Positions 2,272 through 43,247 of a stretch of 64,000 bases of DNA are shown here, piece by piece (positions within the stretch are counted from its first letter, which is position 1; every line of letters starts with the position of its first letter). The DNA comes from an uncultured Bacteriovoracaceae bacterium (GTDB lineage Bacteria; Bdellovibrionota; Bacteriovoracia; Bacteriovoracales; Bacteriovoracaceae). The position numbers and the translations under genes were made by a program. The notes beneath the pieces were generated by a model. That model was given only the letters and a program-made list of their open reading frames with translations, was not told the DNA's origin and searched no databases. The DNA lies in contig CALIJZ010000010.1 in assembly GCA_938017795.1 (NCBI GenBank), positions 1-64,000 on the forward strand, written 5' to 3'.

Positions 2272-2304
2272 TATAGTTTAGTAAAAACTATTAAGGCGGT
2301 ACGT

Positions 2305-22545: not shown

Positions 22546-22928
22546 CACTTGCTAAACAAGACTTGGCTTTTTTAGTTTGTTGTCAGTTTGGAGTTTGGCA
22601 GACTTTTATTTATCAAAGAGTTTTTCAGAATCAATTTTATAAATGGTTTTCTGCCCACCTCTAATAAAACGTTCCCCAATATTGGACATTTCAAAGGAAA
22701 TTATACGCAGTCCTAGGATATGTTGTGTGTTTTTTTTTGAAATTTTAACTCAAAACTCATGTGAGAAAAATAGTGGTCACTAATGCATTATATACAAAAA
22801 GAAGAGTAGGCTTAAGATTTATTCTGAACTACTTGGAATTAAAGAGATACTTGAAACTTCCGATTAGTTTTCACTTATAGAGTTTAAACTATAGAGATAA
22901 AGCTCTATTAGTGAAAGGTTTAATTAAA
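22546..22928. other. Intergenic region before the FN3 lipoprotein genes
   Basis: There is no complete gene. On the minus strand, about 22610-22735 reads as a short open stretch ending in KTIYKIDSEKLFDK and a stop; this resembles the end of the small protein at 43301 (KTPIYKIDFDKIYIRS). It may be a gene remnant. No clear terminator is visible after 22545. The last 40 bases hold the start region of the next gene. Confidence 0.35.
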
Positions 22929-24884: not shown

Positions 24885-24894
24885 GAGATTTTAG

Positions 24895-27800: not shown

Positions 27801-30114
27801 ATATGGAACTTCAAATTCTTCAGTTACAGGTCCAACAAGTCAAAATGGCTCAAAGTCTGGAGCAAAGGATAAAGAACTTATAAGTGGTGATTGTATCGGG
27901 CTACGAGAAACCGGTGCTATCAATGTTAAAACCTCAGCTGGTCCTGGAAGAGGAGAAACTGCAGGTGGGTACGTAATACCAGGTATTTTAGGATTAGGAG
28001 CTAATAACAGTGTTCCTTTTGACGATCCGGCATACACTATTGGAATTGGTGACCCTACCACTGATGATGCTTATAGAGATTTAAACACTACAGAGACTGT
28101 AAACCAAGTTGCTCAGTATGATAAATTTTTTAATGATCATATGGCTAAATCAGAATTTGGGGCAGTTTACAAAATGCGATCTACTGCCACTGGTTGGAAA
28201 TTTCTTCCTTCATACTTAACTGGTAAAAAAATTACTGATCTGACTGGATCAACTGAGATATACGAAAGAACTCCTAGGAAGGCTAGAATAAATTCTTGTC
28301 TTATGAATCTTCCATATTTGGCAGCTGGAAATAATTTGAAATCACGGTGGCTTCCTGTCACTCATATGGGAAGTGATACTTTTCAAGATATAAAGGATAA
28401 TGATCTGTATTATGACTCTAATGCAGGTAGCGATGTGCAATTTCCAGGTATTGTTACTGGTTCTAAAAGAATTGATCTCAATATGCCTGTTGTTAGAGCA
28501 ATAGCTTCAAATAATGCCAAACTCCCTCCAATGGATGGTATGGCTCCAATTGATTTACATAATATTTGTGGGACTTTTGAAGTTGAAGTTGGACACGAAT
28601 CAGAAGGAAATTTTGAAGTTTTAAGGGCAGCTGAACAAAAAAGATCAATGAGGCGAAAAGAATTTATTGTTTCTTCAGCTTGGGGAGATCGGCTAAATGT
28701 TGATAAAATAGTTAACCTAGAAAAAGGCTTTAAGGATGTAGAAGGTCCAATCACTACAAATTCAAAGTGCAATACTTATGATTCAAATTTGAAACCTGCT
28801 GGACAAGATTTCACCTTAGCTGAAAGTAGTCATTATGATAGTACTTATCCATCTAAACCAAGTGAAGGGGATGCATATTTAATGACTGGTTCATCAAAAA
28901 TTGATGGAAATAAAAACAGTGAAGATTGTGTAAGCAAGTTTGGAATTCAAGACTTGGTCGGAAATTTTGCTGAACTTACTTCTGAGAGATTATTTTGCGA
29001 TAGCTCTACTGACCATATTGTTTTAGGACCAATTGGAGCAAAAGATGATAGTCGTTATGCAAAAAAAATAGGTCAAGGACATTGGTTTACTACAGATGTT
29101 TTTGCTCCGTGGACTCTTTCACAAGAAGAAACTGGTCGTTGTTCCAGTATAGAAGTAGGAGCTCAAAGATCTATCGCAACTGTTCAAAATGGTAGAGTGC
29201 GTACTCTTTATGAAAATAAAGTAGTAAATGGTGAGCAAACCCAAGTACTGGCAGACTATATAAGAAAATTTAAAGCTTTTGATCAGGAAGCTGTAGAAGA
29301 TTTAAGATCAGCTGATGGAAATTATCTTGATTTTGGACAAACTCACTTTGGTGGTCCAATAAATAGAATGGATAGGATTGCAATGGTAGATAGAGTCAGA
29401 AGCCATTCAGCTGCTCGAGGCGATGATGCGATTAACCATGATCTTAAAGGAGAAGCTTTATCTGCATATTTCAATCCAGTATTAGGAATCCCTTTAGAAT
29501 GTGGTGAAAGTAGTACTGAGTTTGGTTGTGGTACAAATCAAGGTGTCGTAGCTGAGTCAACATCATTTATTATAAAATCACCTGCTACTACAGAAGAACC
29601 TGAACAATATATCCATATTGGAAACAGTGAAAACTATTCACAAGGGATGGCCGATATTCATTGGAATTACAGTTCTAGATACGCAATTGGTCCAGATAAT
29701 GATCTGAGATTAACCTTTGATTTATATACTAATTGGCTAGAACCCGACAAGTGGGATGATGAGGGTAGTTACTTAGATGGAGCATTTACTTTAGGTCGAG
29801 TTGAGGGTGGAGAGTTTGTAGAAGATCCTAATGATAATGATCCTCCACCAGCTCCTAATTTTGCAGGTAGACTTTATTGGACTATGGAAAGAACCAGTGC
29901 TCCACACGATAGGATAGAAAATGCTATCGATAGTTATTCTAGAATCAGTTTTATTAATGGGGGGGACCTTAGATACAAAGGGTCTGGTCGCTATTCGTTA
30001 TTTATGCAAGCACGAACTGATCAATTAATGAGATTCAATGGGGCAACTCCAAGCTCTATACTTTCACCTCAAAAAGGTGGGCGATGTGTAATTAAGGTGA
30101 AATATGACTATTAA
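24895..30114 (+). CDS. Giant FN3 lipoprotein with degenerate FGE-sulfatase-like C-terminus
   Basis: 1739 residues. The GTG start follows TAGGAGA by seven bases; the lipobox is LASC. Residues 40-800 hold FN3-like domains. From about residue 865 (ALVHRWIGNRTMCKEM) the protein resembles formylglycine-generating-enzyme domains: RKEFIVSSAWGD, CNTYDSNLKPAG, GIQDLVGNFAELTSE and a terminal GGRCVIKV, which recall LPTEAEWEYA, CN, GLYDMVGNVWEWTSD and GFRCV. Key catalytic features are diverged and long insertions are present, so it may be a fold reused for binding. It lies ten bases after the shorter paralogue and overlaps the next gene by 11 bases. It is probably on the cell surface. Confidence 0.75.
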   Translation: MIKLSKIIFILFLASCAGEIDSGFVDPTKLGTDDIEPLEYSGVIEVNPISHNKLEVFFPVADGANVNLVYRIFINDNEIALQSNGTALELDPLGRYRVTLDSYGLRKDIEINTFYKVRVEVYDSIKDVGSESEKSIQIQTFNNETAEFNGITSANVMAGVSGLSSILVKWQFAEKYGTVITPHIKDVAQYEIKYISANLGYRNLNNDSVALEAGEKGLVLVSGDLNELQVSGLNPDTKYYFQVRAIHNGYGEFSNTIPNYRKDENTSMKIANTLTDASSISFLSSSLKVDNAKGISGLTDITVEWDGAIGPYYKYYLVHKEVDSFQEPDKLLPGEIETLISGAQPNVMEVNAGLTSEVVSSLESYKFYQFKLVVCTDVDCSQTNRLYSDLRAIQVAPDLAPFYGITSIDNPRTSQEIADKIIHLNFSAPLVSLGYMEELKLNCHTSTSDPTPEANCPWDIVTPSNINTFLNQDFGGLEEISIKYTGSNPFSSTNFCFSMTPVIGPTDPPDNFFKEMKQSSLVIKCITPEEKTPTLVEFPGKTIQCNTNQTNLTVTWPEPTAGLYSNFLVVWKQKDSSPFDMGLGIQAFESQTDNEVETNLYKYAVINKGTNFKEITDLAVGKSYHTAVIAVQIDGANSYRYGEINSRNSSCLIPVPNPKFNEWVEVVSLGPKVDGLVEPFDTVIDGDKYLNESLDNNGVPVETSSASSEVFDGVKGENDDQSSSEGMIRITWKDNLIYETEEFHSYFPETAASRSERRIGYRIYRSDDNRLTWKDLTAESGLIKAVPTTYFEKVGEESENSNLATFTDYSASYAKDGETFGSTYVTKTERARIFWYKVITVYKGQELEYEDEISNPQHMIRVLLPPPNMALVHRWIGNRTMCKEMNKPINKEAGGHYTCDYLGLGSSPKSQPWVVGQGVYDIGGDLLVDRFELGCNFTRGSGSGLAENKASLALIGPQKVGCTEASTHEYGTSNSSVTGPTSQNGSKSGAKDKELISGDCIGLRETGAINVKTSAGPGRGETAGGYVIPGILGLGANNSVPFDDPAYTIGIGDPTTDDAYRDLNTTETVNQVAQYDKFFNDHMAKSEFGAVYKMRSTATGWKFLPSYLTGKKITDLTGSTEIYERTPRKARINSCLMNLPYLAAGNNLKSRWLPVTHMGSDTFQDIKDNDLYYDSNAGSDVQFPGIVTGSKRIDLNMPVVRAIASNNAKLPPMDGMAPIDLHNICGTFEVEVGHESEGNFEVLRAAEQKRSMRRKEFIVSSAWGDRLNVDKIVNLEKGFKDVEGPITTNSKCNTYDSNLKPAGQDFTLAESSHYDSTYPSKPSEGDAYLMTGSSKIDGNKNSEDCVSKFGIQDLVGNFAELTSERLFCDSSTDHIVLGPIGAKDDSRYAKKIGQGHWFTTDVFAPWTLSQEETGRCSSIEVGAQRSIATVQNGRVRTLYENKVVNGEQTQVLADYIRKFKAFDQEAVEDLRSADGNYLDFGQTHFGGPINRMDRIAMVDRVRSHSAARGDDAINHDLKGEALSAYFNPVLGIPLECGESSTEFGCGTNQGVVAESTSFIIKSPATTEEPEQYIHIGNSENYSQGMADIHWNYSSRYAIGPDNDLRLTFDLYTNWLEPDKWDDEGSYLDGAFTLGRVEGGEFVEDPNDNDPPPAPNFAGRLYWTMERTSAPHDRIENAIDSYSRISFINGGDLRYKGSGRYSLFMQARTDQLMRFNGATPSSILSPQKGGRCVIKVKYDY

Positions 30115-33100
30115 AGTTTATCTTTATATAATCTTTTTTATACTCATCTCTTGTGAACAAAAGACAAATAATGTTGAACTTAATGATGATTCAGTACTTC
30201 AGACTGTTGATTTAAGTATCAATGATATTGAAGCAGGAGAAGAAATCTTTTTAGGCGAGTTTTCTCCGGGGCAAGAAAGTATTCCGGTGGAAATACAAAT
30301 TTTTAATTCGAATGAAAAATATCATATTGAAGACTTTAAGTTGGAGTTTGTTGAACAAAGCTCTATGCTGAAATTCTTTTCTGATGGCGAAGCTGGTGCA
30401 GTCTTTCCAGGAGATGGCGGAGATTGTACGCAAACTTTAAATTCACTTGGAACTTGTAAAGCTATGCTAGAGTTTTCTCCGATCAAGCAAGGAGAATTTA
30501 AATTTCAGGTCAAGGCAACTTATCTCAACTTACTTGGACCGACTGAGCATATACTTACATTCAGTGCTTTTGTTGGAGTACAAGGAGAGTTAGAGTTTGT
30601 CGAAAATATTAGTTCTCTTGATTTTGGTGTCTTTGCTAATGCAGAAGATGAATATACTGAAAAAATATTAACTGTTCGAAATATAGGACAAATTAAAGTT
30701 GAAAATATAAATCTTGAAATTGATATATCAAATGATCAAATTAGTGATTTTCAAATTTCAAAAAATAATTGTCTTGATGCTCTTATTAGTGAGGATCAAT
30801 GTGAGATTACTATTAAATTCAAACCAATAGGTGATAATATTAACTCAGCTGACAACTTTCATGCAGCAAGCTTGGTCATAGAATATGACAGAGATAGCGC
30901 TGGTAGCGAAGGAACGTTGACTAAACCTATGAGGGCCTATTCAACGAGAATTGAAGGAAAATTTAGATTATTAGGAGCTCAATCGCATGGCTTCGAACCA
31001 ATAACACTTGGAAATGAAACGAAAAAAGATGTTGTCTTTCAAAGTTTTGGGTTGAAAGAAGGGATTATAAAAAGTGTTTTTATAAAGAATCAATCGGGAC
31101 AAATGCTTGGAACTTGTGCTCTTCCTGTTAATGCTAATGGATATTTAACATGTGTAAATGATCTTGGAGCTAGTGAAACTCTGACAGATTTTCCATATAA
31201 AATGAAAGACTTAAATAATTGCCTTGAGAAGGCAATAAAAGGAATAGAAGGAATAGGGCTAGAAACAAATTGTGGTTTCGAGCTTACATTTCATGAAAGT
31301 TATCAGTCTATAGCACCTAAGTTCTATTCGGGTAATATTCTTGGATTAAATTATGATTCAACTTATCAAGATCAAGAAACTTTAAAGTCAGAAGACTTTT
31401 TTAGCTTTTCAGCAGAGTCTTTAAACAGTGCCTGCCTCAGCTTTGGAGCTTTATCTTTTGAATTATTCTCAGGAGATACTACTATTTCTCAATTAAATCC
31501 ATTGCAAACAGGATCATATTGCTACGCTCATGAAAGAGAAATTGAATTTGATAATAATAATGAAATCAGCGTAGTAAAATTTCAAACTGCAAATCCTAAA
31601 AATTGGTCAGTAGAAATTTCAAATTTATCAGGTCAACAAATTTCTTCTTTAGAAGTCATAATGGGAGGCAAGGTTCTAAGCTCTACAAGTCAAAATCTAA
31701 ATCTACCATCAGCATATAAAAATGTTACAACTACTTGTACTGCTCTGCTACCCAATGAGGCCATGGAGCAGAAATGTTTCGTTAATTTTGATTTTAGTCT
31801 ACTAGAATCGACAATAGCTCAAGAAAATATCGACGCCTTTGATGAAGTATTAGATGCTGCTAATCAAATTGGGTATAAATATATCGATATTTACTATAAT
31901 GATGGTGCGAACTTTCAAGACGATGGTGTTACAGCACTTGCTAAAAAAAGAGCTCGATTAAAAATAAAAATGAAAGTCGAAAGACGAGCTTTCTTAGTGG
32001 TTGATGTAACTAAAGAAGGGACTACGGATTACCCAGTGGGATCTCCTAATCTTCCTGAAATAAGAAATATTACTCTGACGAATCAAGGCTCTAAGGCTAT
32101 TCCATATATTAAAGTTTTAGCTGATTATGATGAAATTAATCCTAACAATTATGGTGTAAAGATCTTAGAAAGCTCAAGCTGTCTATCTTATATCGATCCG
32201 GATATTTCTCTCCAGCAAAATGTAAACCCTCCTGACCCATTAGTTACTCAATTACCAGCTGGGGCTAGTTGTGAACTAAATATTCATATTGATCAGAAAG
32301 CATATGAAGATGTTTCAAGGACGAGTTTTATACTAGATCCATACGTTGATAAGCGTGTTAATTATACATCAATGGTTTGGTATAATCTTTTTGCTCCAGG
32401 TTTAACAACGGATGAACAAATCTCTGGAGGCACTTATAAACAAGCGTTTAATGTTTTGAGAACAGGAACTTTTTATAGAGAGTATTTTCGAGACTTTGAT
32501 TCTTCTAATAATAATACAATGGAAGCTTGGGAGCAGAAGGGAAGAGAAATTAAAATGGATTTTGATTTCCAATATTATAATGGTGATGAAGATGCCGTGG
32601 AAGCTGAACCTGATCTTGGAGTGTTAAGGCCTGTTGAGAACAGATCTAGCCCTATAACCGTAGGTATAAAAACCCTTGAATTAGCAAAGTTAATACCAGA
32701 AACGGTTTTTCCATATCACGCTGCACTTATTTATCGTCCTTCTTTGACACTCCCAGCACTTAGTATCCCTGACTATCTTGCGGCTCCTAAGTCAGGGGGG
32801 CTGTTTTATTATCAAAATAGATTAACTTATGCTTATGATGAGGTTCCAAAAGCTGTAAACCTTCCACCAGTGTTATATAATGCGGTACCAAGTCAGCCAA
32901 GTCGTAAGGGAGCTAGCTTCATCAGATATTATTATGCTAGAGCTAATAATTTTAGTACTACTCAGTTTAATCCTATTTATTTTCTTGCTCGGACAAACTC
33001 TTTTGATGTTGCAAAACCATTTATTGAGACTCAAATTTCGTTAGAAAGTGAACCTGAAAATATAGACTATGCAGTTCATTTTGGAACTTTTCCTTCTCAA

Positions 33101-35437
33101 AAGTTAGATGGGGCTCCCGTTGAGCAATACTTCCATTTTAGATTGTATAATCGTGGGCAGGTAAATCTAGAAATTAAAAGTCTTAAATTTTTAAAGAAAG
33201 GAACTCCTTCGGCCTCTGCTTTCACCTTTATAACCCCGGAGCACTTACCTACTAGTAATCCGAGAAAAAAGAAACCAAATCAAAACCAAATCATTCAACT
33301 AAGACTTTCTACTGATACTGCAGGAGTCTATTCGGATATTGTAGAAGTTGTTTATTTTAATGGAGTTGAAGAGAAAACAAAAAGAATATTAGTAATAGCA
33401 GACGTGATAGATGATTCCCCGCGAATTAGTATCAAAACTCGTTCTTACGATGTGGTTGAGTCCACCGATAATAATGGGCAAGTAAATGTCTCAGAGGCAC
33501 TTGAAGTTCCTGTTGCATATAAAGAAAACTTTAATGATGATCTGCTTAAATATAATCCTTATTATAGGTATACTTCAGGTATTGATTTTGATACTGAAGT
33601 AATCAAAATGCGAGCCATAGCAGGCTCTCCAGTTTATGGAAAGAAGAGAATTGAAATAGTTAATGATAGTCTTCATGAGATGAAAACCTTGAGGGTATTT
33701 CTTGGAAGAGATATGGGAACTAAGGCCACACTTGCTGATAAAATTCTTATTGCTATTACAAATCCATCTCAGCCAATATACTTGAGTCGTCCTTTAGCAG
33801 GTGATAATGGGTGTTTGGAAAAAGATAGTAATGGTGTAGGGATTGAGAATTTTAATTTGGCTGCAGGGGAATCTTGTTTTATAGATTTAAAGTATCAGCC
33901 TGTCGAAGGGTCACTAGAGGCCTTTCATGAATTAGCCATTAGTTATCAAATACAAGACCGTCAATATACTTTAAGAAAGTTAATTGTTCACTTTGAACCT
34001 TTTCCTCCGGCTAATTTAATTGTTGAAAATGTAAATACTGTATCTGTCCAAGATAATTCAGCAGGTGGTGCTATACAAAGGTCTTATCCAACTTACTTTG
34101 GGGGTCAAAGTGATCCATCACATTTAAAATTAAATGTTTTTCCTGAAATTGCGACAAGAGGTTGTAGTACTTGTTTAAGTCGTATGAAAGTTGTTAATAA
34201 TGCCTCTAAAAAAGCAACTTTACTCAAAGCTTACCGTGTACTCAAGGGGGCTGGTTATGAGACTGCTTTAATTCCTGCAAATGGAGACGAGCATCAAGTC
34301 GCCCAGAGCGGTAGTGGATTAATTAAAGTCTTTGCAAATCGAGCTTGTTTTTATGGTGATGATGAGTTTGATGATTCTCTTGAGCCAGAAGAAAAAGGGA
34401 TGAATTTTGAAACTGTGGCTGAGTGCTATTTAACTGTTAAGTATACAGATCATGGCCAAAGTCTTACTAACTTTGCAATTGAGGAAAGAGATACTGTTGC
34501 TGAAATTTTGTATTACAATAATGATTGGTTATCTCATGATAACTTCTTTGTGCATGCAACTGGATTTGTTGAACCAAACCAAATGAATATTGCTGAATCT
34601 GAAGATGAAAGTGATTATTATAACGTAGAAGCAAACTCATCTGGAGCAATATCTTTTTCTTGGCCAAAGCTGAGTGAGAAAAATGCAAATTGGGGAACAC
34701 TCACATCTTATCGAGTTTATTATAGCAGTAATGATGGAGATTTTAACAATATTTACCGAACACAAGCTGCTTATGTTGATGTGCCTACAGAGAGTGTAAG
34801 CTTTAACCCAGGAGACTTTGCTGAAGGAGAATTTGTTTATTTTAGAGTAGTTGGACTTAGATCTAAAGCAGTCGGTGGAACTGATAAGTTGTACATTTCT
34901 GAGTCACCTTTAGGAATCTTACAGATAGTCGTTCCTCCTGCTGACATGACTTATATCTATGAAGAGAATATTTTACTTTCTCACAAGAAATCTGACGATT
35001 TGATGAGTAAGACCGCTGCGTTAAGTAATTGTCAATCACAAGATGTAGAGCTCTTGAAAAATAATTCAACTTTAAATTTCCCTATGAGTTTAATGGGGGC
35101 CAATGAGTGGAGCTATATTGAAAGCGACAGTGGAGTCAGTGATTATTCTAATGCAATTAATATACCCCACTGGACTACCCAGGTTAGTGACATAGAAGAA
35201 GTATTAGAGCAAAGAGACTTACTTGATCAATATAATCCATCAGTTAAAATCGATGCTTTCTCAGCACCTGATTATCTAGTTTATATGAAAAATTGTACGA
35301 ACTTACCTAGTTGTAACATGCTATCTCTAATTAGAGGAGGAGATGAAGCAATTGATCTTTACCTAAATGGCTATCTATATGTTGATGAAGCAGTTTTTGA
35401 TAAAGCGTATTCTCGATGTGTGGTTGAGTTACCTTAA
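30104..35437 (+). CDS. Giant lipoprotein with ASH/choice-of-anchor-D-like domains
   Basis: 1777 residues, lipobox LISC. It overlaps the preceding gene by 11 bases. Repeated beta domains have strands like LDFGVFANAEDEYTEKILTVRNIGQ and Cys pairs (GGDCTQTL, GTCKAML), the same architecture as the lipoprotein at 2305. Near residues 1500-1600 there is an FN3-like domain (SYRVYYSSNDGDF), followed by a short C-terminal segment ending SRCVVELP, a reduced version of the RCV-ending domain of the 24895 product. It is the last gene of the lipoprotein operon. The motor operon follows 56 bases later with its own promoter. A cell-surface structural or adhesive role is inferred. Confidence 0.78.
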   Translation: MTIKVYLYIIFFILISCEQKTNNVELNDDSVLQTVDLSINDIEAGEEIFLGEFSPGQESIPVEIQIFNSNEKYHIEDFKLEFVEQSSMLKFFSDGEAGAVFPGDGGDCTQTLNSLGTCKAMLEFSPIKQGEFKFQVKATYLNLLGPTEHILTFSAFVGVQGELEFVENISSLDFGVFANAEDEYTEKILTVRNIGQIKVENINLEIDISNDQISDFQISKNNCLDALISEDQCEITIKFKPIGDNINSADNFHAASLVIEYDRDSAGSEGTLTKPMRAYSTRIEGKFRLLGAQSHGFEPITLGNETKKDVVFQSFGLKEGIIKSVFIKNQSGQMLGTCALPVNANGYLTCVNDLGASETLTDFPYKMKDLNNCLEKAIKGIEGIGLETNCGFELTFHESYQSIAPKFYSGNILGLNYDSTYQDQETLKSEDFFSFSAESLNSACLSFGALSFELFSGDTTISQLNPLQTGSYCYAHEREIEFDNNNEISVVKFQTANPKNWSVEISNLSGQQISSLEVIMGGKVLSSTSQNLNLPSAYKNVTTTCTALLPNEAMEQKCFVNFDFSLLESTIAQENIDAFDEVLDAANQIGYKYIDIYYNDGANFQDDGVTALAKKRARLKIKMKVERRAFLVVDVTKEGTTDYPVGSPNLPEIRNITLTNQGSKAIPYIKVLADYDEINPNNYGVKILESSSCLSYIDPDISLQQNVNPPDPLVTQLPAGASCELNIHIDQKAYEDVSRTSFILDPYVDKRVNYTSMVWYNLFAPGLTTDEQISGGTYKQAFNVLRTGTFYREYFRDFDSSNNNTMEAWEQKGREIKMDFDFQYYNGDEDAVEAEPDLGVLRPVENRSSPITVGIKTLELAKLIPETVFPYHAALIYRPSLTLPALSIPDYLAAPKSGGLFYYQNRLTYAYDEVPKAVNLPPVLYNAVPSQPSRKGASFIRYYYARANNFSTTQFNPIYFLARTNSFDVAKPFIETQISLESEPENIDYAVHFGTFPSQKLDGAPVEQYFHFRLYNRGQVNLEIKSLKFLKKGTPSASAFTFITPEHLPTSNPRKKKPNQNQIIQLRLSTDTAGVYSDIVEVVYFNGVEEKTKRILVIADVIDDSPRISIKTRSYDVVESTDNNGQVNVSEALEVPVAYKENFNDDLLKYNPYYRYTSGIDFDTEVIKMRAIAGSPVYGKKRIEIVNDSLHEMKTLRVFLGRDMGTKATLADKILIAITNPSQPIYLSRPLAGDNGCLEKDSNGVGIENFNLAAGESCFIDLKYQPVEGSLEAFHELAISYQIQDRQYTLRKLIVHFEPFPPANLIVENVNTVSVQDNSAGGAIQRSYPTYFGGQSDPSHLKLNVFPEIATRGCSTCLSRMKVVNNASKKATLLKAYRVLKGAGYETALIPANGDEHQVAQSGSGLIKVFANRACFYGDDEFDDSLEPEEKGMNFETVAECYLTVKYTDHGQSLTNFAIEERDTVAEILYYNNDWLSHDNFFVHATGFVEPNQMNIAESEDESDYYNVEANSSGAISFSWPKLSEKNANWGTLTSYRVYYSSNDGDFNNIYRTQAAYVDVPTESVSFNPGDFAEGEFVYFRVVGLRSKAVGGTDKLYISESPLGILQIVVPPADMTYIYEENILLSHKKSDDLMSKTAALSNCQSQDVELLKNNSTLNFPMSLMGANEWSYIESDSGVSDYSNAINIPHWTTQVSDIEEVLEQRDLLDQYNPSVKIDAFSAPDYLVYMKNCTNLPSCNMLSLIRGGDEAIDLYLNGYLYVDEAVFDKAYSRCVVELP

Positions 35438-35493: not shown

Positions 35494-36882
35494 GTGACAA
35501 TTTTAAAAATTATTCTGAATAGACGTGCTCAATCTTACGAAAAAATTTTGGTATTGATCTTCCTATTTTTCATACCTTCACTTTTTAGCCAAGAGGTCTT
35601 GTTTAAACCCGGTGAGAAAATCAAACTCTACCTTAAACCAATTCAATCAGAGGTTCTTACAAAGCAGCAAAAAATCTCTCATTTAAAATCAGCATTCCAA
35701 GTCATTTTAAAAAAGAGACAGTATCAAGTTTTATTAGGAATCCTACCTCCGCTAGCAAACCAGAACCAAGCAACCTATCACTCTGTTGAGATTCAAATTG
35801 GTAAAAAGAAAGAATATTTTCTTACTGCACTACTTAAAGATGAATCAAATAATGAAATCCTAAAAAAAGTAAATAGAAAGATGATTCCTAAGCTTAATCT
35901 AAGCAGAGCGGTTTATATTGCCGTTGAAAAGCTTTTTGAAGATATTGTCTTCAAAGAAATGGAGAGTTACACCGAAAATCTAAACGAGAAAACTCGGAAG
36001 AAAAGAAAAGTATCAAGAGCTAAGAAAAGAAGAGAAGCAGAAAAAAAAAAGCCTATTCGTAAGGCTCCAAGAGTGGCTAAAGAGCTTAATGAAAAACGAG
36101 TCGCCGTAAAAGTACCAAAGCCAAAGAAAAAAATTAAAAGAAAAGAAAAAAGCTTAAAAGAGAATATAGATCAATATTTGGCAAAAAATAAATCAAAAAT
36201 AAGAGATAAATTTTCTGACAAAGAAGATAATGAAGCAGACGATTTTGTTGCAGAAAGAGTTAAGAAAGATTTTTTATTAAGCCTTAACCTTTATCGATCT
36301 CAAATAGATACAACTGATTTTGAACTTGTTCACAACACTTTTACGGGTGTGAGATTTGGTGTTTGGGGCAATATAATAAAATTTAAGAATTCTTCATTCA
36401 ATGCCAATTTCTCTATAGGAACTTTGGTGAGAAATACAGATGAATATGATATTCCGCCATATTACAAGGCAGGCCTAAATTATTCGTATCTATTTTCTTC
36501 TTTTAATAGTGTCATTACGGCTGGGGTTGATTATGAAACTTATAGTTTCATAAATATACCTGTTTTTGGAAGAGGGTTTCAAACAGCAAAAAATAAAATG
36601 ATTTGGGCTAAATTGAGAGGAGACATCTATTTTAAGAGTTTAAGAAATTTAAATTTGTCACTTCTGTATGCCAAATCATTGAGCTCAAGTTTATCTTATG
36701 GTCCTGGAGAATTAGATCCCATGTCTGGTAATTTTATTGAAGCAAGTCTTTCTGTTATTGTTTTTAAAACATTCCGAGCTGGCTTTTCTTATCAAAAGTT
36801 AGCTCTAGATGGAAAGAGTTACGTGAACCCTTTGTCTGCTGATGAAAATCAGTTATCATTAGTCTTGAGTTATTTATTATGA
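35494..36882 (+). CDS. Outer-membrane barrel protein with charged linker, motor operon gene 1
   Basis: 462 residues from GTG 35494. The N-terminus is a signal sequence (hydrophobic residues 18-32). Residues 45-160 form a small alpha/beta domain. Residues 165-245 are an extreme Lys/Arg/Glu-rich linker, probably a long helix or coil. Residues 260-462 alternate polar/hydrophobic strands (LLSLNLYRSQID, GVRFGVWGNIIKF, GLNYSYLF) and end in a hydrophobic strand, as outer-membrane barrels do. The charged linker could span the periplasm or bind peptidoglycan. The stop overlaps the next start (ATGA). No family is recognised. Confidence 0.65.
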   Translation: MTILKIILNRRAQSYEKILVLIFLFFIPSLFSQEVLFKPGEKIKLYLKPIQSEVLTKQQKISHLKSAFQVILKKRQYQVLLGILPPLANQNQATYHSVEIQIGKKKEYFLTALLKDESNNEILKKVNRKMIPKLNLSRAVYIAVEKLFEDIVFKEMESYTENLNEKTRKKRKVSRAKKRREAEKKKPIRKAPRVAKELNEKRVAVKVPKPKKKIKRKEKSLKENIDQYLAKNKSKIRDKFSDKEDNEADDFVAERVKKDFLLSLNLYRSQIDTTDFELVHNTFTGVRFGVWGNIIKFKNSSFNANFSIGTLVRNTDEYDIPPYYKAGLNYSYLFSSFNSVITAGVDYETYSFINIPVFGRGFQTAKNKMIWAKLRGDIYFKSLRNLNLSLLYAKSLSSSLSYGPGELDPMSGNFIEASLSVIVFKTFRAGFSYQKLALDGKSYVNPLSADENQLSLVLSYLL

Positions 36883-37481
36883 AAAAAATTTTATTTTCTA
36901 TTATCTTCTTAGCTTTTTCTGGCTTTGCCTCAGATGAGCTACATGAGTTACAAGTAGGTTTTGGATATAACCAAGTAAGTTTCGATGAAAAAGAAACTTC
37001 GATTGAATTTGATGATAATGATTTAAAGCGACCTGCTGAAAGTGGAAGTCTTTCTGTCATCTCACTTAATGCTTCATATGGGCTAATCAACTTCACTAAT
37101 CAAACTCTTTTTGTAAATGGAGTATTTCCTCTAATAAATAGTGGTGATGAAAACTATTATCAAGGAAGTGTTTCTATCAAGCATTATTTTAAAAACTTAA
37201 ATACAATCAAAAATTATGATTTTCCTGATGGGAATTTAACTATTTCTCCTAGGCTTAGATATTATCTTGGCCTTGAAACTGGAATTGCATATATGGTTTA
37301 TACCACTACTAATGCCAAAAAAGATGATACTTCTTTTCTATTAAGAGCATTGGGTGGAGCATCTTATATGTTTACTCAGAAAATGGGTGTTGATGTTGAA
37401 GCTGGCTATGGTAGAGCAACAGGCTCAATCACTTCAAGTTCATTAATAAATGGATCCTTATCTCTTGTTCTATTCATCTAA
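36879..37481 (+). CDS. Small outer-membrane beta-barrel protein, motor operon gene 2
   Basis: 200 residues. A signal peptide (MKKILFSIIFLAFSGFAS) is followed by amphipathic strands with aromatic ends (LQVGFGYNQVSF, ISLNASYGLINF, LSLVLFI at the C-terminus). The size and terminal strand suit an eight-stranded barrel. It starts inside the stop of gene 1, so production is coupled. In this operon the two barrels are the natural outer-membrane end of the machine; this is inferred from location. Confidence 0.7.
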   Translation: MKKILFSIIFLAFSGFASDELHELQVGFGYNQVSFDEKETSIEFDDNDLKRPAESGSLSVISLNASYGLINFTNQTLFVNGVFPLINSGDENYYQGSVSIKHYFKNLNTIKNYDFPDGNLTISPRLRYYLGLETGIAYMVYTTTNAKKDDTSFLLRALGGASYMFTQKMGVDVEAGYGRATGSITSSSLINGSLSLVLFI

Positions 37482-37570
37482 CTATATTGTGTAGAAGATC
37501 AAAGAGGCTCAACTAAGTAAATTTTTCTACTATCTCTTTATTTTCTCAACTCATTGTAAACTATTGGAAG

Positions 37571-38176
37571 ATGAAAAAATTTATTCTGTCATTAATGTTG
37601 TCTTTCTTGTTATCTGGTCAAGCTTTGGCTGGAAAGTTAGTTATTAAAAGCAATCCTGAAGATAGCACTGTCTATGTGGTACGAGCTAATGGGAAAGAAG
37701 TTAAAGTGGGAAAAACTCCTTTTGAAGGAGATCTCTCAAATTTAACCAGTCGCTACGTTAAAAGCGATAGTTTTGTTATAACACTCAAGAAAAAAGGCTA
37801 TGAAGATTATCGAGTATTAATGGCCAAAAACTCTAACGTTGATATGAATTTATCGGCAAACCTAACTATTCATGAAAAAGTTTCCAGCATCAAGGAATAT
37901 GATTTGTTAATTGCAGATCTATTTGATGTTCAAAGACTAATGAGAAGTAAAAACTACTCAGACGCTCAAGGGAAACTTGATAGCCTGGAGAAAAAATATA
38001 ATGGTTTTTCTATTATACCAGAATTAAAGGGAATTGCTTATTACATGAGTAAAGATATTGAAAAATCTCTTTCTCACTTTAGAAGAGCTTTTTCTGTTAA
38101 TCCTGAAAACAAAGATGCTTACAAAATGAAAGTATATTTAGAGAAAAAACTTGGTGTAGGCTCAGAGAAGTTATAG
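37571..38176 (+). CDS. Periplasmic PEGA and TPR protein, motor operon gene 3
   Basis: 201 residues. The signal peptide ends near GQALAG. Residues 20-95 match a PEGA domain (LVIKSNPEDSTVYV, VGKTPFEGDL, ITLKKKGYEDYR), a small beta fold common on bacterial cell surfaces. Residues 110-190 form TPR-like helices (LKGIAYYMSKDIEKSLSHFRRAFSVNPEN). PEGA and TPR parts usually mediate protein-protein contact, so it may link inner- and outer-membrane parts. The next gene starts at the base after its stop codon. Confidence 0.78.
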   Translation: MKKFILSLMLSFLLSGQALAGKLVIKSNPEDSTVYVVRANGKEVKVGKTPFEGDLSNLTSRYVKSDSFVITLKKKGYEDYRVLMAKNSNVDMNLSANLTIHEKVSSIKEYDLLIADLFDVQRLMRSKNYSDAQGKLDSLEKKYNGFSIIPELKGIAYYMSKDIEKSLSHFRRAFSVNPENKDAYKMKVYLEKKLGVGSEKL

Positions 38177-40381
38177 ATGAAAAATAAACATAAAACATTA
38201 AACTATTTTTTTCTGATTTTTCTATTATTTACTAACTCTTTAGGTCTTACTCAACAGAAAGTAATAATAAAAGAATCTGTTGAATGGCAAAAAATTCAAT
38301 TAGAGGAAAAGCTTTATAAGAAAGTAGATCAGCAATTAGGAGCAATCCTAGATAAGAAAAATTATATTATTAAAGTAGATGCAATTATTGATGAAGAAGT
38401 TCCTCTTCGGTTTGATGCAAATGAAAACATTGATGATTATATGGGTTCAATCGACTTTGATCGAAAATACGAGAACGAAAATAATAAAGATATTAATGGA
38501 AACTCTACTAATGAAAATGAGGCAAACTCTAAAGAGGGTAATGCTGGTTTCCGAGACGATGGTATAAAAGTTTCTGATATACAATTTGATGAATCTAATG
38601 GTGATTATATTGCTTTTTCTAAAATCGGGTTAGAAGTTCCTATAGTTGAAAAATATATGAAAGGAGAGACTTCTCCAAGAAACCAAAACGGAAAAGCATC
38701 TTCAAGTACAAATCAAAATGAGAAAAAATTTGAAACAATTCTTAGACATCCTCAAGAGGTCTTAAGAGAAAATATTATTAAGGATACGACTGTTAATAAA
38801 AAGTACTTTGAGTATTTATATCGATATAATAAGGCTTTTGATCTTTTTGATTATATTACAGATATTAAAATTGATGTTATTCTTGATAAGAATCTTCCAG
38901 AAGAAATTCAAAGCATTACAAAAAGAGTACTTAGAGATCTTAAGATTTCTGTTGCTGGAATAGAACCAGCAATAAAGGTAAAAGTAAGTGCACTTTCTTA
39001 TACTCCTAAACCTAAGAAGAAAGTTGAAACTGAACCTATTGTAAAAAAGAAGACATTTGATGATTACCTTGAGTGGGTTTCAAAGTTTGCTAATGTTATT
39101 GCTGCGATATTGGGATCACTACTTCTAGGGGTGATAGGTTTTGTTCTTATCTCATTTTACTTTCGAAAAATGGAGCAAAGAAATCTCCAAGAGAGTATGG
39201 CATTAAATATGAATGACTCTGGTATGGGTAAAGAGGACAAAGAAGAGACTGCAGCATCAGCTGGTATTGGAGGAGACTTAGGCCAAGGCGAACCTGGTGA
39301 TCTCTCTATCAATGGAGCACAAAGATTTGAAAAATTTTGGAGCTATAATAAGCAAGAAGCTTTAGTTTTTCTAAAAAATGTTCTAGGAGAAAGTAGCAAA
39401 GAGTCACAATTGGCACTTACGGCGCTTGCGCAACAATTAGATAATGATGTTCTAAGAGAGATTTTCTCTCTTATGAGTGAACAAGATAGATCAAACTGGA
39501 AAGATAAAATTCAGAGTTTCTTAACACCTGAAGATTTAAAGAGAGCTGATACTTATATTTCAGAAAAAGTAGTGAGTGAGATGATTGTTCCATCTGCGAT
39601 CAAAGATCCAGAACTAGTATCACTTATAATGAATCTATCTCCTGAACAAGGTGTGCATTTTGTTCAAAGCAACCCAGAGTATGGGGCAATCTTGCTTAAT
39701 CTAATGAACACTCAATATTCTAGTAATATTTTAGCAAAATTGACTCCAGAAGAGAGTATAGCAGTGTTAGAAAAAGGCTTACATTATTCACCTGTTGATT
39801 TTATTAAAAAAGCAGATGATTTTAAAATGATGTTATCTGGCTACGAAGTTGGATTAAAGAAACTTCCTTTTGGACATAAGCTTATTGATATGTTGGATAA
39901 AGTAGATGCACAAAAAGAAGAGATTATTTTTGCAACACTTGCTAAGGCCGATGATCCGGAGCTTCTTAAGAAGGCCTTGAAAGCATATTTCCCTAGTTCA
40001 CAAATTAAACGTCTTCCAAAAAATTTCATGAGAGTTGTGATCAATAAATATTCACTTCAATCAAAAGTTGAACTTCTAATGTCAGTAGATAAAAAACTGA
40101 GAGAGCATTTACTTGAGATTTTTGCAAAACAGGGAAGTACAGCCAGAGATCTTATGGATTTAGAATTTAAGAACTTAAAAGAAAACGCAGCTTTAAAGAA
40201 GAAAATGGTTGATCAAAAAGATGAAATTTGGAAAAGTTTCATGACACATTTAAGAGGATTTATAAGCGGCGATGACATCTATCGTGCTGAGATTGATAAA
40301 GTTTTAAATAGTTATAGTGAAAAGCTTGTGAATGGATCAGCAGACCCTAAAAAGGTTGTAAAACTGAAGGCAGTGTCATGA
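38177..40381 (+). CDS. FliF-like/FliG-like fusion protein, probable motor rotor or force-transfer component
   Basis: 734 residues. A signal or first membrane segment (about 8-25) is followed by a periplasmic region with a ring-building-like fold (ITDIKIDVILDKNLPEEIQSITKRVLRDL, near 230-265), as in the MS-ring protein FliF. One membrane helix lies at about 300-330. From about 383 the cytoplasmic part resembles FliG: helical ARM-like units (IMNLSPEQGVHFVQSNPEYG) and, near the torque region, LAKADDPELLKKALKAYF, matching the FliG helix with charged residues facing the stator. FliF and FliG are normally separate proteins. The stop overlaps gene 5; MotA and MotB follow. Fusion and role are inferred from pattern, not alignment. 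Confidence 0.6.
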   Translation: MKNKHKTLNYFFLIFLLFTNSLGLTQQKVIIKESVEWQKIQLEEKLYKKVDQQLGAILDKKNYIIKVDAIIDEEVPLRFDANENIDDYMGSIDFDRKYENENNKDINGNSTNENEANSKEGNAGFRDDGIKVSDIQFDESNGDYIAFSKIGLEVPIVEKYMKGETSPRNQNGKASSSTNQNEKKFETILRHPQEVLRENIIKDTTVNKKYFEYLYRYNKAFDLFDYITDIKIDVILDKNLPEEIQSITKRVLRDLKISVAGIEPAIKVKVSALSYTPKPKKKVETEPIVKKKTFDDYLEWVSKFANVIAAILGSLLLGVIGFVLISFYFRKMEQRNLQESMALNMNDSGMGKEDKEETAASAGIGGDLGQGEPGDLSINGAQRFEKFWSYNKQEALVFLKNVLGESSKESQLALTALAQQLDNDVLREIFSLMSEQDRSNWKDKIQSFLTPEDLKRADTYISEKVVSEMIVPSAIKDPELVSLIMNLSPEQGVHFVQSNPEYGAILLNLMNTQYSSNILAKLTPEESIAVLEKGLHYSPVDFIKKADDFKMMLSGYEVGLKKLPFGHKLIDMLDKVDAQKEEIIFATLAKADDPELLKKALKAYFPSSQIKRLPKNFMRVVINKYSLQSKVELLMSVDKKLREHLLEIFAKQGSTARDLMDLEFKNLKENAALKKKMVDQKDEIWKSFMTHLRGFISGDDIYRAEIDKVLNSYSEKLVNGSADPKKVVKLKAVS

Positions 40382-41643
40382 GAAATATAATAGCATTATT
40401 GATAGGGTTAACATGTAGTTTTCAACTATATGCTTCAGTATTGGATGCAACACAATACTCAGTATTAGAATCTGTTAAAGCCAATAATTTAATTATATCT
40501 ATTAATAGTGATATTAATAAAGTTATAGATAAAAAAGAGCCAACTTATAAAGAGGTATTACATAATTTTATTAGTTTAGGGAAATCAATTGATGCTAGTA
40601 ATCTTTCAGAGAAGAAAAAAAATACTCTAAAATTAGATTTAAATACGAATTACAAAAAATTTAAAACTGATCCAGCACAATTTAAAAATTTTTCTAATGA
40701 AAATGCAATTTATAAAACTATCGACCCTCTAGTGATATTTAGTATATTTGTTATGACTTGTTTAGTTGGAGCTATTTTGTATTCATTTAGAAGCAAGATT
40801 TTTGGAAAGTCATTTAATTTAGAGCAATATCTAGGTTCTTATATGGAAGGTGGGCATGTAAAACTCCCTACTCTTGTTTTTGATTTAACAAGTCAGAAGA
40901 TTACATATAAAAATATAGCTTTTGAAAATATTTTTGTTTCTAAGACAGAGGACGAATTTTTTGAACAAGTAAGTTTATTTCTTAAACAAAGTGATGGAAT
41001 TGAAGGTGATAAATTCCAGGCGAAAGTTAAGAATGAAATTTATATGGTTACAAGAAAAAAGGTTGAATTTAATTCTCGAAAATATAATATTATCCATCTT
41101 ATAGATTTCGAAAGTTCTATAGCTCAAAATGTTCCTAAGAGAAGTAATCTTCCAGAGTTACCAGTAGCACAACTTAATACAATTGATGGAATGCTAGAAG
41201 AGTATTTCTTCCAAAACTCATTTCTTTTTCAACTAAAAGGTGTTTTAGTTCAATATAAGACTGAAATTGGAAACCAAGATATTCCTGTTGGTTCTAAGAA
41301 AGTTGCAAATTCCTTGAATACTATTGTCTGCAATTTTTTAAAGATTTCAGATCAAAAGAAACTAAAAACAATGCAAATTAATTGCTCCAAAAAAATCAAT
41401 GATTTATATATTGAGTTTATATTTGATTCACCTGAGGTGGTCAGAAAATTTAAAGAGAACTCTCATGATACATTAAGAGAGATTAAGAAAGATTTTAATC
41501 TTGGCGTAAAGTTCCAACCACGAATTTTCATTGGAAAGAATCAAGCATCTGTTATTATGATGTTTCCTCTTATCCTGAATCCAGGGAATAAAATAGCTCT
41601 TGAAAAAAACATCAAAGTAAAAACTACTTCAGCTAGAGCTTGA
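40378..41643 (+). CDS. Membrane-anchored cytoplasmic protein, possible degenerate PAS/kinase-like module, motor operon gene 5
   Basis: 421 residues. A signal peptide (residues 1-19), a helical periplasmic part, one membrane helix near 118-138, then about 285 cytoplasmic residues. Residues 160-245 have PAS-like strands (LVFDLTSQKITYKNIAFENIF, IYMVTRKKVEF). Residues 300-410 vaguely resemble a histidine-kinase ATPase domain: VANSLNTIVCNFLKI near the N-box place and a last strand ASVIMMFPLIL. No phospho-acceptor His or G-boxes are evident, so it would be catalytically dead. It lies between the FliF/FliG-like gene (four-base overlap) and motA (25 bases). It may replace FliM/FliN as switch or regulator. 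Function unknown. Confidence 0.55.
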   Translation: MRNIIALLIGLTCSFQLYASVLDATQYSVLESVKANNLIISINSDINKVIDKKEPTYKEVLHNFISLGKSIDASNLSEKKKNTLKLDLNTNYKKFKTDPAQFKNFSNENAIYKTIDPLVIFSIFVMTCLVGAILYSFRSKIFGKSFNLEQYLGSYMEGGHVKLPTLVFDLTSQKITYKNIAFENIFVSKTEDEFFEQVSLFLKQSDGIEGDKFQAKVKNEIYMVTRKKVEFNSRKYNIIHLIDFESSIAQNVPKRSNLPELPVAQLNTIDGMLEEYFFQNSFLFQLKGVLVQYKTEIGNQDIPVGSKKVANSLNTIVCNFLKISDQKKLKTMQINCSKKINDLYIEFIFDSPEVVRKFKENSHDTLREIKKDFNLGVKFQPRIFIGKNQASVIMMFPLILNPGNKIALEKNIKVKTTSARA

Positions 41644-41668
41644 GTATCATATTTAATAAGAGGCAAGG

Positions 41669-42451
41669 ATGAATATTTTCTCCATTATTGGTTTTGTTAT
41701 CGCAAGTATCGTTCTTTTAGTTGGACTTAGACTTGCAAGTGATGATCTAGGATTATTTTTCAATATACCTAGTTTGTTCATTGTTATTGGAGGAACCTTT
41801 GCTTCAACTTCGATTTCATTTCAACTCAATAGACTTTTTGCTTTCTTCAAGATTTTTATAGATAGAGTGCTTTTAGGAAAGAAAACAAACTATACACGAG
41901 TTGTAGAACAGATCATTAGAATTGCCGATGCGAGTAAAAAGGGACAACCAATTGAGTCTCAACTTTCTTTAGCTAATGATGTTTTTCTCAAAGAATCTCT
42001 AGATATTCTCAACGAAGGAATCCTTGATAATGAAAACGTAGTTGCAGTTATGAAGGATAGAAACGAAAATTTATTACTTAATAATATGCAAGAAGCTAAT
42101 AAAATTAAGACAGTAAGTAAATTTCCACCTGCCTTTGGTATGATTGGAACAACAATTGGTATGATTGTTTTACTGGCCAACCTTAATGGTGAAAATGCTA
42201 TGCAGACGATTGGTCCTGCTATGGGGATTTGTCTTATTACTACTCTTTATGGTGCGGTATTAGCGAATTTACTATTTATTCCAATTGCTGAAAATTTAGT
42301 AGAAGATTCTAAAGAGCGATATTTAAAAAACAAAATAGTAGTAAAAGGTCTTTCTCTAATTATTAAAAATACTAATCCCGTGATTGTAGCAGAAGAGTTA
42401 AATTCATTTTTGCCTCCGAAAGATCGTTTGGATTGGAAGAAAGTGATATAA
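41669..42451 (+). CDS. motA: MotA/PomA-type stator channel protein
   Basis: 260 residues with four membrane helices (about 1-20, 30-52, 152-172, 180-205). FPPAFGMIGTTIGMI carries the conserved Pro of MotA helix 3, and TTLYGAVLANLLFIPIAENL is helix 4. The cytoplasmic loop between helices 2 and 3 has charged residues that in flagella contact FliG. MotA and MotB form an ion channel (usually a 5:2 ring) that turns ion flow into torque. No other flagellar gene is in the window, and the partner here is probably the FliG-like domain encoded at 38177. It is eight bases from motB. Confidence 0.93.
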   Translation: MNIFSIIGFVIASIVLLVGLRLASDDLGLFFNIPSLFIVIGGTFASTSISFQLNRLFAFFKIFIDRVLLGKKTNYTRVVEQIIRIADASKKGQPIESQLSLANDVFLKESLDILNEGILDNENVVAVMKDRNENLLLNNMQEANKIKTVSKFPPAFGMIGTTIGMIVLLANLNGENAMQTIGPAMGICLITTLYGAVLANLLFIPIAENLVEDSKERYLKNKIVVKGLSLIIKNTNPVIVAEELNSFLPPKDRLDWKKVI

Positions 42452-42458
42452 AACAATT

Positions 42459-43247
42459 ATGGATGATCAAAGACTTCAAGCACTTATGCAAGAAATGGAA
42501 AGCGACGGTGGTACCCAAGACTGGTTAATCAGTTATGCTGATATGATGACGTTGATTGCCAACTTTTTCATCCTAATGCTCGCTTTTGCAAACTTTGACC
42601 CTATTGGCTTTAATGATAAAGCTGAAAAACTCTCAAAAGCATTTCGTAAAGATGAGTTCAAAACTAGTGTCGAAGAAAAGTTTGATACAATAAAAGAAGA
42701 GCTCTCAGTGCATCCCGAAATGCAAAAAAAACTAAAGATGAGTATTAAAGATGGTGGTCTCCTCATCACTTTTACTGGAACAGTTTTATTTGGAAAAAAT
42801 CAATACAAAATAAGTGAAGAAAACCAAATGGTCTTAGATGCTATGATTGATATAATTAAAGGCCAAGACCCAGCATTTCGTATCTTGGTTGAAGGACATA
42901 CTGATAGTGACAAGCAAGGAAGAAAAAAGTTTTTCCAATCAGATTGGATGTTAAGTTCAGCTAGAGCTGCAGCTATTATTGAAAGATTTCAATATTTTGG
43001 GTTTAATCCAGCGAATTTAGTAGCTATTGGCCATGGTTCTACTCAACCTATAATTGCTGAAAAAGATAGTGAAGGTGCTTATATACAAGAAAATCTCGAA
43101 CAAAATAGAAGAGTTTCTATAAAGGTCTTAAGAGCTTTAGAAAAAGGACAAACTAAATTTGGCCTAGGTGGATATTTCCAAGATTCAACAAATTCTGAAG
43201 AAGAAAAAAGTCGTTTTATCGATCAAGAATATAAAAGCAGTAAATAG
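42459..43247 (+). CDS. motB: MotB/PomB-type stator protein with OmpA-like peptidoglycan-binding domain
   Basis: 262 residues. One membrane helix with the ion-carrying Asp28 (SYADMMTLI), as in Asp32 of Escherichia coli MotB. Residues 75-115 form the linker/plug region. The C-terminal OmpA-like domain (ILVEGHTDSDKQG, SSARAAAIIERF, LVAIGHGSTQP) binds peptidoglycan and holds the stator still. The tail after residue 235 is charged. It is the last gene of the motor operon. The ion (proton or sodium) cannot be told from sequence alone. Confidence 0.94.
   Translation: MDDQRLQALMQEMESDGGTQDWLISYADMMTLIANFFILMLAFANFDPIGFNDKAEKLSKAFRKDEFKTSVEEKFDTIKEELSVHPEMQKKLKMSIKDGGLLITFTGTVLFGKNQYKISEENQMVLDAMIDIIKGQDPAFRILVEGHTDSDKQGRKKFFQSDWMLSSARAAAIIERFQYFGFNPANLVAIGHGSTQPIIAEKDSEGAYIQENLEQNRRVSIKVLRALEKGQTKFGLGGYFQDSTNSEEEKSRFIDQEYKSSK

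Follow-up and report, generated by a model that had tools for sequence, protein, structure and literature searches.

FliG is known as a rotor protein of the flagellum. In Bdellovibrio bacteriovorus HD100, three motAB pairs, including Bd3021/Bd3020, named MotA2/MotB2 (PMC11323537), reportedly all serve a single flagellum (Morehouse 2011, cited in PMC11323537 and PMC12827227). FliL-Bd1076 of this strain binds MotB3, an interaction with MotB2 was not detected, and a motA3 mutant is defective in flagellar motility (PMC11323537). According to a 2026 review, the gliding machinery of the Bdellovibrionota is unidentified, and its motor, adhesins and force transmission form a major open challenge (PMC13104615). 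We analyzed a 64,000-nucleotide stretch of DNA (the window; contig CALIJZ010000010.1, assembly GCA_938017795.1) from an uncultured Bacteriovoracaceae bacterium, in which the genes at 35494–43247, designated A to E, motA and motB, appear to encode a FliG-type rotor and a MotAB stator that are conserved in a bacterium lacking a flagellum.

A preliminary description of this sequence had presented the locus as seven tightly packed genes, and all seven open reading frames (ORFs) were verified on the plus strand, with overlaps or gaps of 0–90 bases. They likely encode some form of MotAB motor dedicated to a non-flagellar role. The machine is probably a non-flagellar, ion-driven rotor–stator assembly that derives from the flagellar torque core and is placed in the cell envelope, with the product of gene D as its rotor. 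The component families are already known, and the novelty lies in an envelope motor that combines them and stands alone; no paper naming a non-flagellar FliG–MotAB machine was found in the open-access literature.

A FliG-like domain in the product of gene D

Gene D (38177..40381, plus strand), a core gene of the system, encodes a predicted fusion consisting of a FliF-like part resembling the third ring-building motif (RBM3), a transmembrane (TM) segment and a FliG-like part, as assigned by profiles, Foldseek and hhalign. Neither D nor E gave a significant match in single-protein Pfam and NCBIfam scans, so the FliF/FliG and PAS assignments needed profiles and models; a single-protein scan of the genome contigs with D also gave no matches. 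A profile of 22 D relatives, compared with all PDB sequences, returned four matches (FliG, FliG, FliF and FliF), with the FliF-like stretch lying ahead of the FliG-like stretch along the chain; only the best of them was significant (FliG MC, 3ajc, E=2.6e-6). In the AlphaFold2 model of D, the FliG-like region covers 380–720 with a pLDDT of ~86. The preliminary description had named structure prediction of this protein as a check that could overturn it, and a Foldseek search of PDB with the model placed FliG at positions 1–12 (best E=6.5e-5, ~315–330 columns), the top matches being full-length FliG from C-ring structures. TM-scores were low, because the helical domains differ in relative position.

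Orthologues of D exceeded the Pfam cut-offs themselves: one relative matched FliG_M (29.1, cut-off 25), further relatives matched FliG_C (40.2/23.3), FliG_M (32/25) and FliG_N (25.5/25), and others matched FliG_M (48.9) and FliG_C (39.5). Alignment of the D family with ten canonical FliG proteins of the same phylum by hhalign gave P=95.5 (E=1.4e-8, 260 columns), and P remained at 89 after removal of the four nearest relatives; with the Bacteriovoracaceae members by themselves, P was only 16. A second hhalign result for FliG homology was P=98.4 (E=6e-15). Reversed and column-shuffled controls remained under 1%, and with unrelated-family controls included the values were mostly under 1%. The FliM-binding EHPQ motif, found in 10/10 canonical FliG proteins, was absent from 30/31 D proteins (HPQ in 1/31), a loss that fits the absence of FliM. 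In the alignment, the residue equivalent to E. coli FliG D289 was acidic (E/D) in 31/31 D proteins, and that equivalent to R281 was Lys in 22/31. The profile comparisons, the Pfam matches of orthologues and the structural model confirm that D contains a FliG-like domain.

In the AlphaFold2 model, the remainder of D is ordered as signal peptide, helix–strand, long insertion, strand–helix–strand and TM segment. This is the topology of FliF reduced to RBM3. In hhalign comparisons, the stretch ahead of the FliG part matched the FliF C-terminal tail with P=35% and the periplasmic domain matched RBM3 with P=17%, and Foldseek probabilities for the FliF part were 0.18–0.30. No YscJ_FliF match was found in D for RBM1, RBM2 or the first TM segment of the MS ring. 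Order and topology are right and scores are low, and the FliF-like nature of the N-terminal part is therefore suggestive only; the preliminary claim of joined FliF-like and FliG-like parts thus stood in full for its second half alone. Elsewhere in the genome, host contig 51 (L007:915-2411) encodes a 498-amino-acid (aa) protein with an over-threshold YscJ_FliF domain. Its neighbours are sigma-54-type regulators, with no flagellar genes beside it in a genome without a flagellum, and it is not tied to the system.

A flagellar-type stator in a genome without a flagellum

MotA (41669..42451, plus strand), the predicted stator A subunit, matched PF01618 with 57.4 bits, and its best NCBIfam model was PomA (143.9 bits vs 14.5 for TolQ). 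MotB (42459..43247, plus strand) retains the TM Asp (SYADMM) and carries a plug (MotB_plug, 43.3 bits) and an OmpA-like peptidoglycan-binding domain (OmpA, 52.9 bits). By sequence family, this core pair belongs to the flagellar-type ion-transporter class, in agreement with the earlier proposal of a MotAB, not a TolQR-type, stator; the proposed inner- to outer-membrane layout is supported as well. In a MotA tree, a long branch (support 93/96) separated all fusion-linked MotAs (43 rows) from flagellar and flagellar-like MotAs, the latter thinly sampled with only six outside rows.

Neither the host genome (94.8% complete) nor three congeners yielded FlhA, FliM, flagellin or an over-threshold FliG_C, and FlhA was present in 117/129 genomes of the order. 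Two host MotAs were found in the search, each in a D cluster. Since the host lacks FlhA, FliM, flagellin and canonical FliG, the MotAB pair at 35494–43247 cannot serve a flagellum, as the preliminary description had held in calling this a machine without one. These data indicate that the host genus has lost flagella.

The second, paralogous cluster occupies 46000–65102 of host contig 6 (L006) and contains giant lipoproteins, MotA, MotB, a PilZ protein, a PEGA/TPR protein and a FliF–FliG fusion, followed by a cyclase-like gene. Beyond the latter lies a gene for a 773-aa protein of LDKLDN-type repeats. In one congener (G068; L117, L103), the motAB side of the second cluster is kept, and the fusion gene appears as fragments at contig ends only, possibly through an assembly break.

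Recurrence of the core across the Bdellovibrionota

The core, consisting of the PEGA/TPR protein, the FliF–FliG fusion, the barrel and MotAB, recurs across the Bdellovibrionota at 63 distinct loci and in at least seven families. The D profile matched 46/129 genomes of the order and 80/369 of the phylum, some of the matches being weak. At 42 distinct D loci the D-family gene had 6 kb or more of flanking sequence to either side; among these, C was present in 39, MotA and MotB together in 34 and B in 31. These counts indicate that the gene grouping is not due to chance. Outside the Bacteriovoracaceae, the usual block is C-D-B-MotA-MotB. Most carriers are also flagellated, having FlhA and a separate canonical FliG, and a search with the PEGA/TPR alignment placed the cultured Bacteriovorax sp. 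BSW11_IV among the carriers.

A second type, for which genome G132, which we take to be B. bacteriovorus HD100, is the reference case, was recovered at close to full length from about 25 genomes and has the same five parts. The hhalign comparison of HD100-type D with D_FliFG gave P=98.45 (E=4e-15); a comparison with the set 'Dall', which holds one HD100-type member, was circular and was set aside. The MotAB pair of G132 at 2.919 Mb, minus strand, presumably corresponds by position to Bd3021/Bd3020. This motAB2 locus (L112:2421-17987) holds a FliG fusion of 577 aa (L112:2421-4154), a PEGA/TPR lipoprotein and a barrel. Upstream in the same locus are genes for a VWA protein and for a predicted surface protein of 1482 aa.

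A third type, of 750–800 aa with FliG_M/FliG_C, lies directly before MotA or one gene away. FliG-domain proteins of a third class, of 750–900 aa, were located immediately upstream of MotA/MotB or one gene from them in the two loci that were read (L157:8480-10729 and L158:8380-10767); members also occur in G318, G333, G347, G331 and G312 and are common in families f22 and f26. In addition, stand-alone FliG_C-only proteins of ~140–160 aa (G046:C1:1207331, G046:C2:231018, G043:C1:207905, and in G045, G089 and G104) number one to three per flagellated Bacteriovoracaceae genome, besides canonical FliG.

Composition of the gene run

The co-directional run is unbroken from 22911, and three lipoprotein genes precede the seven ORFs, with 57 bases between the end of Z2 and the first of them. 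The unit is thus larger than 35494–43247, with giant lipoprotein genes at 22911–35437 at its head; the preliminary description was right about its seven genes but omitted these three and the paralogous cluster. Y (22911..24884, plus strand) encodes a 657-aa fn3-domain lipoprotein (fn3, 65.3 bits; lipobox LSSC), and Z1 (24895..30114, plus strand) a 1739-aa fn3-domain lipoprotein (fn3, 50.4 bits), both predicted surface proteins. Homologues of Y adjoin the system in other genomes, and those of Z1 adjoin many related clusters. Z2 (30104..35437, plus strand) encodes a 1777-aa lipoprotein (lipobox LISC) with a choice-of-anchor-D repeat (NF012200, 34.5 bits, below the cut-off of 45), and in related genomes its homologues immediately precede the operon. 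The linked surface proteins vary by lineage, being of the fn3/anchor-D kind here and of the VWA and FG-GAP/fn3 kinds beside HD100-type clusters. At 151–7026 of the window there is another pair of giant predicted surface proteins, one with DUF285 repeats (439 bits) and the other a 1573-aa protein whose HYDIN/anchor-D-like Ig domains recall the Z2 type.

Two outer-membrane barrels had been predicted at the start of the seven genes. A (35494..36882, plus strand) encodes a secreted protein with a signal peptide by sequence, a Lys-rich linker and possibly a C-terminal barrel; Lepto_7_Nterm reached 21.4 bits, below its cut-off, and no significant barrel match was obtained in the Pfam/NCBIfam scan, so that its barrel is a guess from sequence. 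Homologues of A hold the same position in related genomes. B (36879..37481, plus strand), a core gene adjoining the fusion gene in most loci, encodes a predicted outer-membrane beta-barrel of ~200 aa that fell just below the cut-off of OMP_b-brl (26.8 vs 28.7 bits). The periplasmic PEGA/TPR protein was borne out as core gene C (37571..38176, plus strand; PEGA, 25.5 bits vs a cut-off of 20.8).

E (40378..41643, plus strand), an accessory gene, encodes a probable regulator with a signal peptide, a TM segment at ~111–139, a PAS domain and a degenerate histidine-kinase ATPase-like domain. Its AlphaFold2 model was modest (mean pLDDT 58), and Foldseek matched PAS proteins and histidine kinases, in support of the membrane-anchored PAS-like protein first described and adding a kinase-like domain behind the PAS domain. 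The likely counterpart of E in other clusters is W, a PAS protein; the sequence link is marginal, and E is therefore termed its equivalent by position only, not its orthologue. E and A are lineage accessories outside the phylum-wide core, A being found in the Bacteriovoracaceae.

Proposed mechanism and alternative explanations

In the machine we propose, MotA/MotB would be the stator, anchored to peptidoglycan through the OmpA domain of MotB, and would act by ion flow on the FliG-like end of D. D would be the rotor: the torque helix of its cytoplasmic FliG-like part would face MotA, and movement would be passed to the periplasm through its TM segment and its periplasmic FliF-RBM3-like domain, probably in the form of a ring. 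C would couple D to barrel B. In this family it would also couple D to A and to the surface lipoproteins Y/Z1/Z2, which would be moved or put under load against the cell exterior. The machine would do without FliM/FliN, export gate, rod, hook and filament. Regulation may be exerted by E (PAS/pseudokinase), and at the paralogous cluster likewise by the PilZ and cyclase genes. A role in surface motility or predation is plausible, by analogy and from the linked surface lipoproteins. A tentative suggestion, to which we give somewhat less than even weight, is that the machine drives gliding by exerting force on surface adhesins. The broader proposal, a phylum-wide non-flagellar rotary class with a one-chain FliF–FliG rotor and its own MotAB, turning an outer-membrane or surface assembly as the sought-after motor for gliding or prey contact in the Bdellovibrionota, HD100 motAB2 included, is possible but rather doubtful.

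Several observations weigh against these proposals. The support consists of families, order, topology, linkage and the missing flagellum, seen in sequences and models, from which we infer the action of the machine. No FliG Pfam model matched the window D itself, which has Thr at the R281-equivalent position, unlike the Lys of most relatives; its FliF part scored low by both methods (hhalign P 17–35%, Foldseek probability at most 0.3), and barrels A and B are weakly predicted. MotAB was not within 12 kb at some Bacteriovoracaceae loci (~18 kb off in G046), and 3/63 loci were without another core gene, one of them having only 1.5 kb on one side. No trace of the fusion was seen in two of the three congeners, and it is thus dispensable. 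An older gliding candidate also exists in Bdellovibrio, namely the Agl-Glt homologues of cluster Bd0828-0838 (PMC3169522).

MotAB and D could instead work as a transducer of the Tol-Pal/TonB kind that takes no part in movement and pulls C and the barrel for outer-membrane upkeep, import, or secretion and assembly of the giant lipoproteins. The constancy of the PEGA/TPR protein and the barrel as partners, beside surface lipoproteins that vary by lineage, speaks for this, as does the lack of a diagnostic locomotion gene; but conservation of a rotor-type FliG domain together with MotAB points to torque more than to a simple pull, and the stator is PomA/MotA-like, not TolQ/ExbB-like, which makes this explanation unlikely. 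We consider it more improbable still that the surface proteins are rotated or moved in prey attachment, invasion or exit, and not in gliding: carriers belong to a predator phylum and include the cultured Bacteriovorax, with VWA, FG-GAP and fn3 surface proteins nearby, but distribution is patchy within predator genera, and many carriers are metagenome genomes whose lifestyle is not known.

The presence of FlhA in most carriers and the report of three HD100 motAB pairs for one flagellum would suit an alternative stator with its own adaptor assisting the normal flagellum. This is very improbable in view of a system kept twice in a genome without FlhA, FliM, FliG or flagellin, a D protein without the FliM-binding motif, and an HD100 FliL that binds MotB3, of the motility-related pair, with no interaction detected for MotB2. 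Decaying remnants of a lost flagellar operon, surviving by chance, would agree with the loss of flagella in the host genus but are scarcely credible given that the ORFs are intact, that one genome has two copies and that at least seven families share the core; the distribution contradicts this reading, most carriers being flagellated with a separate canonical FliG.

The gene set is a concrete candidate for the gliding motor of the Bdellovibrionota. Its apparent presence in HD100, the standard laboratory strain, where motAB2 has so far been counted as a flagellar stator, suggests a re-reading of the model of three MotAB pairs and one flagellum. The gene set is also relevant to the uses, and the possible origin, of a flagellar motor independently of export and filament.

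Comparison with known systems

Zorya (ZorAB) shares a MotAB-related pair with this system; as a defence system of that type the locus was rejected, since MotB alone matched, as a generic relative (ZorB, 50 bits), and ZorA, ZorC and ZorD were unmatched. Tol-Pal and ExbBD-TonB belong to the same stator superfamily and likewise energize the outer membrane through the periplasm, but the stator here has a MotB plug and an OmpA domain, and a FliG-type rotor is present. The Agl-Glt machine of Myxococcus is similar in its envelope-spanning layout, ion-driven stator, periplasmic TPR part, outer-membrane parts and surface adhesin; the latter is the VWA protein CglB (PMC13104615), with fn3, FG-GAP or VWA proteins as counterparts here. 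In contrast, Agl has TolQR-class stators and no FliG/FliF rotor, whereas the present stator is PomA/MotA-like; Pfam scans named no Glt family, no Glt profile having been run. With the flagellar motor, the system shares flagellar-type MotAB and a FliG-like torque domain joined to a TM segment and a periplasmic FliF-like part. It differs in being without FliM/FliN, export gate, rod, hook and filament, in combining the FliF-like and FliG-like parts in one chain with FliF cut to one periplasmic domain, and in its tie to PEGA/TPR and outer-membrane proteins. The system would work like the core of a flagellar motor, and its layout resembles that of Agl-Glt, but as tested it is a member of neither class.

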